The notes under the pieces were generated by a model. That model searched no databases. It saw nothing but the letters and a program-made list of their open reading frames with translations, and was not told where the DNA came from. From an uncultured Granulosicoccaceae bacterium (GTDB taxonomy: Bacteria; Pseudomonadota; Gammaproteobacteria; Granulosicoccales; Granulosicoccaceae): a stretch of 55,140 bases of DNA. Every line of letters starts with the position of its first letter. Position 1 is the stretch's first letter. Shown here piece after piece: positions 46,165-47,880 of the stretch. Made by a program: the position numbers and the translations under genes. The stretch covers positions 1 to 55,140 of the forward strand of contig CALFCF010000053.1 of NCBI GenBank assembly GCA_937951345.1, read 5' to 3'.

Positions 46165-46551
46165 GTGTCGATAGAGCCGTTTATAAAATGCTCGGATATT
46201 CAACATTCGCTGTCATTCTATGTCAGCGTATTGGATTTTGTCGTGCTTGTCGCGCCGGATAAAGATCCGGCTTCCTTTATGTCCCGATATGCGTACCTAG
46301 AGCGCGGCGGACACGGTGTTCATTTGTCGCAGCACCCTGGTGACGGGGTTTTTGGCAATGTTTTGTATGTTCGTGTTGATGATGCCGAAATGCTCTACAC
46401 GCAGTTTATAGCGCGAGGGCTGTCCACCGGTGATGATAATTTACCTGGATTATGCATACCGTTGACCGATCAAAGCTGGGGTATGCGTGAATTTTCCGTG
46501 CGTGATCCTGACAATAACAAATTGACGTTTGGCCAGCAGCTACCTCGCTAA
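46165..46551 (+). CDS. VOC/glyoxalase-bleomycin-resistance family protein
   Basis: A 128-residue protein with the paired beta-alpha-beta-beta-beta modules of the vicinal-oxygen-chelate fold: FIKCSDIQHSLSFYVSVLDF in the first module and NVLYVRVDDAEMLYTQFIARG in the second, ending SVRDPDNNKLTFGQ. The C-terminal DPDNN/LTFGQ region is characteristic of fosfomycin/bleomycin-type members. It starts with GTG. It is divergent from the M24 gene and converges on the MFS gene across the 47-bp MITE-like element. Substrate unknown. Confidence 0.8.
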   Translation: MSIEPFIKCSDIQHSLSFYVSVLDFVVLVAPDKDPASFMSRYAYLERGGHGVHLSQHPGDGVFGNVLYVRVDDAEMLYTQFIARGLSTGDDNLPGLCIPLTDQSWGMREFSVRDPDNNKLTFGQQLPR

Positions 46552-46587
46552 TGGTGCTGCCAAATTGTTTTCAGCCTAATGTTTTAG

Positions 46588-46634
46588 GGAAGCTCTGATT
46601 TATCGCCTGCCTCGCCTAATAAATCAGAGGTTCC
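46588..46634. mobile_element. 47-bp MITE-like element with IS5-type ends and TTAG target duplication
   Basis: GGAAGCTCTGATTTAT (46588-46603) and the inverse of GGAACCTCTGATTTAT (46619-46634) form 16-bp terminal inverted repeats with one mismatch and only 15 bp between them. TTAG flanks both sides directly (46584-46587 and 46635-46638), fitting the YTAR target duplication of the IS5 subgroup. The minus-strand MFS gene ends inside it, with its TGA at 46626-46624. It may also serve as a bidirectional terminator hairpin. The identity of a parental transposon is inferred. Confidence 0.65.
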
Positions 46635-47880
46635 TTAGATCATCGCTGCCGGCACCGGCAAGCGCTGCTGATGACCCTATTTGCCCTAATCGGTGCTCAT
46701 TGCCTGGAGCGGGATCGTCCGGAATACAAAGTGACAAGAGTAACGAACAGGCTGCCAATGCAGTGCCTGTTAAAAATACAGCTGCTGGTGATTGCAGCCA
46801 AACCAGTCCTAATATGACGGGTAGAAATACTGCAGCAATATGATTTATGGTGAAGCTAACACCGGCAGTCGATGCAATGTCACGCTCATCGGCTATTTTT
46901 TGAAAGTAGGTTTTGATGGCAATTGCGATTGCGAAAAACAAGTGATCAAGCACATACAAAGAGGCTGCAATACCGGCGTGTTCTACAAACGCATAGGTTG
47001 TGAAAATAATCATCAAACCCGCATATTCGAAAAGTAGCGCAGGTCGCTCACCTATCCTGCCAATCCAGCGCCCGATCCGTGGCGCAAAAATCATGTTGAG
47101 TATGGCATTTATAAGAAAAAGCAGCGCGATGTCGGAAATATCGAATCCGAATTTCTCAACCATCAGAAAACCTGCGAAAACTACGAAAATCTGACGTCGG
47201 GCACCTGACATAAACGTCAGTGCATAGTACAACCAGTAGCGCCGACGCAAAACAATATGTTTATGTTGAGCAACACGTTGTGGATACATCGGGAACTTCA
47301 CCCATGCGAACACAGCAAGTGCGACGGTGGCACTACCGGCAAACAGATAAATCCATACAGAATCCAATTGCAGCTGTCGCGACGCAAGAAGCACAAATCC
47401 ATAGGCAAGCAGGCCGCTAAAAGAACCCACGGCGATTAACTTTCCGAGCGTGGCAGCTGTTCTGTCTTTTTCAATCCATTGAAGGGTTAGAGAAGTTTGC
47501 AGTGTTTCGTAGTAGTGGAAACCCATCGACATCAACACAGTGCAAATGTATAAACCCATTGCATAGGGGAAAAACCCGGTAATTGCGGTGCCAACACCCA
47601 GTACTAGCAATGACACCACAGCCAATCGTTGTTCCCGAATAATCATGAGCAGGAACACAACAGCAAAAGCTAGAAATCCCGGTATCTCACGCAACGATTG
47701 CAGAATGCCGATTTCACGACCGGTGAAAGCTGCCTGATGAATGGCAAAGTTGTCGAGCAACACCATCCATGTGGCGAAAGACAACGGCACGGCCGCGGCC
47801 ATTATCATCAACAGTCGTTCCGGCGATCCTTCTGACCTTTTTAGCAAACCGACCCGCTTAATGTGTTGTTGAAGATTCAT
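46624..47880 (-). CDS. MFS transporter
   Basis: A 418-residue inner-membrane protein with about 12 hydrophobic helices. Basic loops are present, including SEGSPERLLMIMAA at the N-terminus and IGRWIGRIGERPAL between helices. It starts 20 bp after another MFS gene on the same strand, so the two are probably cotranscribed and may serve related substrates. Its last codons and stop lie within the MITE-like element at 46588-46634, so the C-terminus may have been altered by the insertion. Substrate unknown. Confidence 0.85.
   Translation of the reverse strand: MNLQQHIKRVGLLKRSEGSPERLLMIMAAAVPLSFATWMVLLDNFAIHQAAFTGREIGILQSLREIPGFLAFAVVFLLMIIREQRLAVVSLLVLGVGTAITGFFPYAMGLYICTVLMSMGFHYYETLQTSLTLQWIEKDRTAATLGKLIAVGSFSGLLAYGFVLLASRQLQLDSVWIYLFAGSATVALAVFAWVKFPMYPQRVAQHKHIVLRRRYWLYYALTFMSGARRQIFVVFAGFLMVEKFGFDISDIALLFLINAILNMIFAPRIGRWIGRIGERPALLFEYAGLMIIFTTYAFVEHAGIAASLYVLDHLFFAIAIAIKTYFQKIADERDIASTAGVSFTINHIAAVFLPVILGLVWLQSPAAVFLTGTALAACSLLLSLCIPDDPAPGNEHRLGQIGSSAALAGAGSDDLRNL

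Follow-up and report, generated by a model that had tools for sequence, protein, structure and literature searches.

How does a gene come to end inside a transposable element too short to carry a gene of its own? The question is raised by one interval of the window, a 55,140-nucleotide stretch of a contig from an uncultured Granulosicoccaceae bacterium, where the 72-bp gap between convergent MFS transporter and glyoxalase-like genes contains a 47-bp element (Table 1). It has no coding capacity and no known activity. It had been predicted from the sequence to be MITE-like, with 16-bp terminal inverted repeats carrying one mismatch, 15 bp between them, and TTAG on either side. Each of these features reappeared when the sequence was read directly and then re-extracted: 46584-46638 reads TTAG-GGAAGCTCTGATTTAT-CGCCTGCCTCGCCTA-ATAAATCAGAGGTTCC-TTAG, and the single mismatch between the arms sets GGAAG on the left against GGAAC on the right. 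A scan of the whole window for the end sequence, allowing up to three mismatches, returned both element ends and one weak match.

Table 1. Coordinates of the element and its neighboring genes in the window
Feature	Position	Strand	Remark
Glyoxalase-like gene	46165..46551	+	Ends 36 bp ahead of the element
Left target-site duplication, TTAG	46584..46587		
Non-autonomous element, 47 bp	46588..46634	none	Very probably derived from the genome's IS5-ended MITE of 140 bp by loss of the core
Left terminal inverted repeat, GGAAGCTCTGATTTAT	46588..46603	+	One mismatch to the family end GGAACCTCTGATTTAT
Middle, 15 bp, CGCCTGCCTCGCCTA	46604..46618		Inner flanks from both sides of the 140-bp form, brought together
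GCCTGC	46605..46610		The one copy remaining of a 6-bp direct repeat; in the 140-bp form, a copy lies on either side of the deleted stretch
Right terminal inverted repeat, GGAACCTCTGATTTAT	46619..46634	-	
MFS transporter gene (PF07690)	46624..47880	-	Last three residues (RNL) and stop supplied by the element
TGA stop codon of the MFS gene	46624..46626	-	Inside the right terminal repeat
Right target-site duplication, TTAG	46635..46638		

The search for further copies of the ends, proposed with the original prediction, was positive. In the draft genome (4.49 Mb, 115 contigs), the family end sequence GGAACCTCTGATTTAT matches 132 times with up to two mismatches, against 2 matches for a reversed control pattern, so the window element is no chance arrangement. 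About 65 copies of a 140-bp mini-transposon are present, dispersed and without a transposase gene. Our catalogue of 51 complete elements, built from fetched copies, comprises 42 of 140 bp, four of 135 bp, one of 139 bp, two of 61 bp, and two of 47 bp, the 140-bp copies showing 0-17 differences from their consensus. Perfect 4-bp duplications flank 34 of the 48 scorable copies, mostly of the form YTAR (TTAA, TTAG, CTAA, CTAG), which is the target motif of IS5 (PMC10359306). Several contigs begin or terminate inside a copy, indicating that the draft assembly breaks at these repeats. On contig C13 (L014:1440-1545), half a MITE copy lies between near-perfect direct repeats of about 26 bp, TTAAAATATTTCGAAYTGCGCACTTC, unlike the usual 4-bp duplication.

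The duplications also bear on a different origin. A short palindrome between genes could belong to the REP-type extragenic palindromes, which a Y1 (RAYT) transposase moves, and not derive from a DDE element. REP and REPIN sequences are palindromes without target duplication, whereas both the family and the window copy have 4-bp duplications; the YTAR duplications already contradict this origin, which is further disfavored by the IS5 ends and by the existence of a 140-bp parent form and is thus extremely improbable.

The IS5 assignment is borne out by larger, autonomous elements with the same ends. The YTAR motif plus the end sequence was scanned over 84,980 species genomes, yielding at least 104 stretches, mainly proteobacterial among the matches listed. 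Complete same-ended elements among those listed measure 1195 bp (L115), 1194 bp (L179), and 1182 bp (L214), each between CTAG duplications; two further ones measure 1191 bp (L120, cut by a contig end) and 1160 bp (L127). DDE_Tnp_1 and DUF772 domains are present in the L214 transposase, whose score to the NCBIfam IS5_4 model (NF033581, transpos_IS5_4) is 361.8 bits, with a cut-off of 140. A same-class genome holds a complete element with GGAACCTCTGAT ends and TTAG on its right (L248). Together with the many relatives in the window's genome, these insertion sequences, which encode an IS5-family transposase, agree with the predicted MITE-like nature, IS5-type ends, and YTAR duplications. Full-length IS5 elements with these ends exist in other bacteria, but none is found in this draft genome: transposases of the L214 kind occur in only three of the 57 genomes searched, and the search of the 115 contigs of the window's genome gave none. 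Since several of these contigs end inside a MITE, an intact parent could be missing from the assembly.

Two other genes in the genome were considered as the parent. The DDE transposase on contig C93 (L246) is apparently frame-disrupted and has different ends, TAGTCGGCCCTGAGTAAT, and at the end of contig C9 (L247) there is an IS1182-like transposase gene. As the ends at C93 differ and family ends are absent from both loci, neither was taken as the parent. In another genome (G049, L251-L266), many contigs start or stop within the N-terminal 113 residues of an IS5 transposase: a high-copy insertion sequence breaks that assembly.

The length of the window element finds an explanation in the 140-bp form. 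There, GCCTGC stands just inside the left end and is repeated just inside the right end; if the 93 bp between these repeats are taken out of the 140-bp consensus, the result is identical to the window element except for the pre-existing left-arm mismatch. The cut can be placed anywhere across the shared 6-bp repeat. Shortening at an occupied site is documented by the 61-bp copy on contig C94, which has the same site and the same CTAA duplication as 140-bp copies on C82 and C63. The three share flanks of about 190 bp on the left and about 50 bp on the right and are all nested at one position of a larger dispersed repeat. Finding the 61-bp copy where two sister repeats hold the 140-bp form indicates that in-place shrinkage occurs, and this, together with the geometry of the GCCTGC deletion, favors a deletion origin for the 47-bp form. 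The original prediction had placed the element close to two abutting ends; the ends are indeed only 15 bp apart, but it is primarily an internal-deletion derivative of the 140-bp MITE. The larger repeat itself, seen in the flanks of L051, L052, and L059 (C82, C63, and C94), extends about 200 bp to the left and 50 bp to the right of the MITE, which it carries at one fixed position.

It is also conceivable that the 47-bp form is itself mobile and transposed here at its present length, with an IS5 transposase acting in trans on ends 15 bp apart. A second 47-bp copy with an identical junction lies elsewhere in the genome (C51:127032-127078; L024:1504-1550), and ultra-short elements with full 4-bp duplications are present in other genomes: 43 bp with CTAA flanks in the congener G001 (C397; L095:1501-1543), together with related copies, 42 bp between CTAA duplications (L140), and 58 bp between TTAG duplications (L180). 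Such forms thus recur. Conversely, a deletion over the same 6-bp repeat can happen more than once, the 47-bp length is found in only two of the 51 complete copies, the two 47-bp copies have differing arms, and the C94 copy shrank at a site already occupied. We therefore regard transposition at 47 bp as unlikely, at perhaps a minority share of the probability. When the middle of the element was used as a query, the genome-contig collection excluding the window's own genome gave no match.

Two observations concern these short copies. Both arms of the C51 copy carry the same CCACTG variant, as if homogenized. G001 also has a sister family of MITEs, 151-162 bp long (L104:1220-1370, L108:1501-1662), with palindromes of 27 and 43 bp at the two ends, and the 43-bp element of that genome is a solo right-end palindrome of this family.

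We propose that the window element is very probably an IS5-family-ended non-autonomous MITE copy that was inserted near the MFS stop and shrunk by a 93-bp deletion. Judging from the ends and the duplication, an IS5-group DDE transposase acting in trans would have put a GGAACCTCTGATTTAT-ended element into TTAG, duplicating it, at a point two codons ahead of the natural stop of the MFS gene. The inserted element, or its source copy, would then have lost the 93 bp between the GCCTGC repeats, removing the structured core and leaving the two ends 15 bp apart. The junction is read directly in the DNA, and slippage or a short-homology deletion may have produced it.

The consequence for the MFS protein appears small. 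That the element supplies the stop codon, as predicted, holds insofar as the TGA lies inside its right end, but the site before insertion already had a stop. When the flanks are joined with a single TTAG, the reconstructed empty site ends in AGSDDLKH followed by a stop, compared with AGSDDLRNL and a stop at present. The native stop lay two codons past the insertion point, and only the final two residues and the stop were replaced. At the level of translated sequence, the protein now ends in DDLRNL instead of DDLKH, a change of C-terminus that is probably close to neutral. A comparison with MFS orthologues (57-60% identity) showed no identical ending; beyond the last conserved motif, their C-termini are 8-11 residues shorter. 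Read inward, the family consensus has a stop in one frame at base 8 of either end, and from the right end a second frame is closed at base 16, so that such elements readily end genes. The locus illustrates that they can do so almost without effect, and how far an IS5-ended element shrinks while its ends and target duplication remain.

The inverted ends also give the transcript a fold. The 55 bp fold at -24.4 kcal/mol, more stable than all 200 of 200 shuffles, and at -20.9 kcal/mol on the other strand. A hairpin this stable on both strands, in a 72-bp gap between convergent genes, might be maintained as a bidirectional transcription terminator of the two, and the original prediction proposed that it could terminate both. 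However, neither strand has a U-tract, and a terminator scan of both strands called nothing at the element, so termination is unsupported; moreover, the structure is a by-product of inverted ends common to all copies. Maintenance as a terminator is accordingly improbable. The transcript nonetheless acquires a stable hairpin in the gap, with possible protection of 3' ends as a result.

What the 47-bp copy has lost may be more significant than what it has kept. The centre of the 140-bp MITE (L003:1501-1640) matches repeats in a distant family. A 72-bp core query matched in 31 of 185 class genomes, the window's own included, at 75-100% identity. A covariance model located the core in 158 of 369 sampled class genomes (E ≤ 0.001) and in 90 of 299 phylum genomes, other classes included (E ≤ 1e-6). 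It was also found in four plasmid records (Pseudomonas, Halomonas, Fukatsuia), and the search returned none in E. coli genomes and none in phages. The model was positive in the full-length copies tested; the 47- and 61-bp copies, the window, and those complete IS5 elements that were examined gave no match. A search of Rfam covariance models with the core gave nothing, either for four loci at a threshold of E = 0.1 or for a single element by itself at E = 5. As text strings, the end sequence, the core, and the other end types gave no literature match, which means only that the papers searched do not print these strings.

The elements that carry the core are bounded by unrelated inverted repeats, including CAGGCTGTTGAAAAA, GGAACCTCTGATTTAT, TCCTACTGTGTCACAA, GGGCACCTCTAAAAAT, GCGCTTTGCACGA, and others (loci L273-L331 and L332-L395). 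The well-bounded ones (n = 25) measure 138-143 bp, with a mean of 140.2 bp, and most of the duplications around core elements fit YTAR. In a Pseudomonas tremae plasmid, an IS5 transposase lies near a core, but its ends do not match the nearby element. Placing the end types on a quick tree of the cores requires a minimum of 14 changes. This does not demonstrate repeated end-switching: when each of four end types was tested as a single clade, none was rejected (p-AU 0.45-0.74), the core tree being too weak.

The core is about 90 bp long and forms 28 pairs, of which 16 show double compensatory changes in an alignment of 46 cores. The proportion of cells that pair is 95.8%; in shuffles it drops to 80.8%, and with sliding to 33-43%. 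Among 40 model matches, mostly loci outside model building, 24 of the 28 pairs covary, in an alignment that was fitted to the covariance model and leans towards it. The core also has conserved unpaired GA loops. Several features distinguish its strands. Folding is weaker on the opposite strand (-18.7 kcal/mol, compared with -29.5 kcal/mol, for sets that differ slightly), 38 of 39 mostly new matches retain a strand-specific G-U pair, and G-U outnumbers A-C mismatches by 85 to 14, or 42 to 14 leaving out one pair, a count that is partly biased because pairing was predicted on the counted strand. These asymmetries suggest that one strand of the modeled structure may be the functional one. We also considered whether templated correction of palindromes explains the covariation; it could apply to the perfect stretches of the core, but alone it would preserve neither the G-U pair nor the mismatched loops, which are conserved.

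In MITEs, the ends are usually thought to be conserved while the middle drifts. Tentatively, with slightly less than even confidence, we propose the reverse for these non-autonomous elements of about 140 bp found across the Pseudomonadota: their conserved part would be a structured, strand-specific core, and their ends would be of several unrelated types. The core would then represent an undescribed RNA-like or single-strand-DNA module under several IS5-type ends, and the 47-bp element a coreless remnant. The 47-bp element itself is ordinary; it is the core that merits follow-up. Should it prove to be a functional RNA or single-strand structure, one could test whether selection maintains a non-coding module inside MITEs and whether a single module can travel with different transposases.

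Among known systems, the closest are the IS5-family insertion sequences, whose complete 1.16-1.2-kb elements have the same end sequence, GGAANCTCTGATTTAT, and YTAR/CTAG duplications; the window element, by contrast, is without a gene, and the search of its draft genome revealed no parent copy. Bacterial MITEs span 50-500 bp and are moved in trans (PMC10969869). The window element resembles them in its inverted ends, target duplications, lack of a transposase, and high copy number, although 47 bp is just under the quoted range and its parent family is defined by the core as much as by the ends. QMITE2 of Coxiella burnetii is a MITE with a palindromic middle conserved in other genera, has 7-9-bp duplications, and occurs in short forms that resemble REPs (PMC5896051). 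By description, it is similar to the core-bearing 140-bp family in its conserved middle and dissimilar in the length of its duplications.
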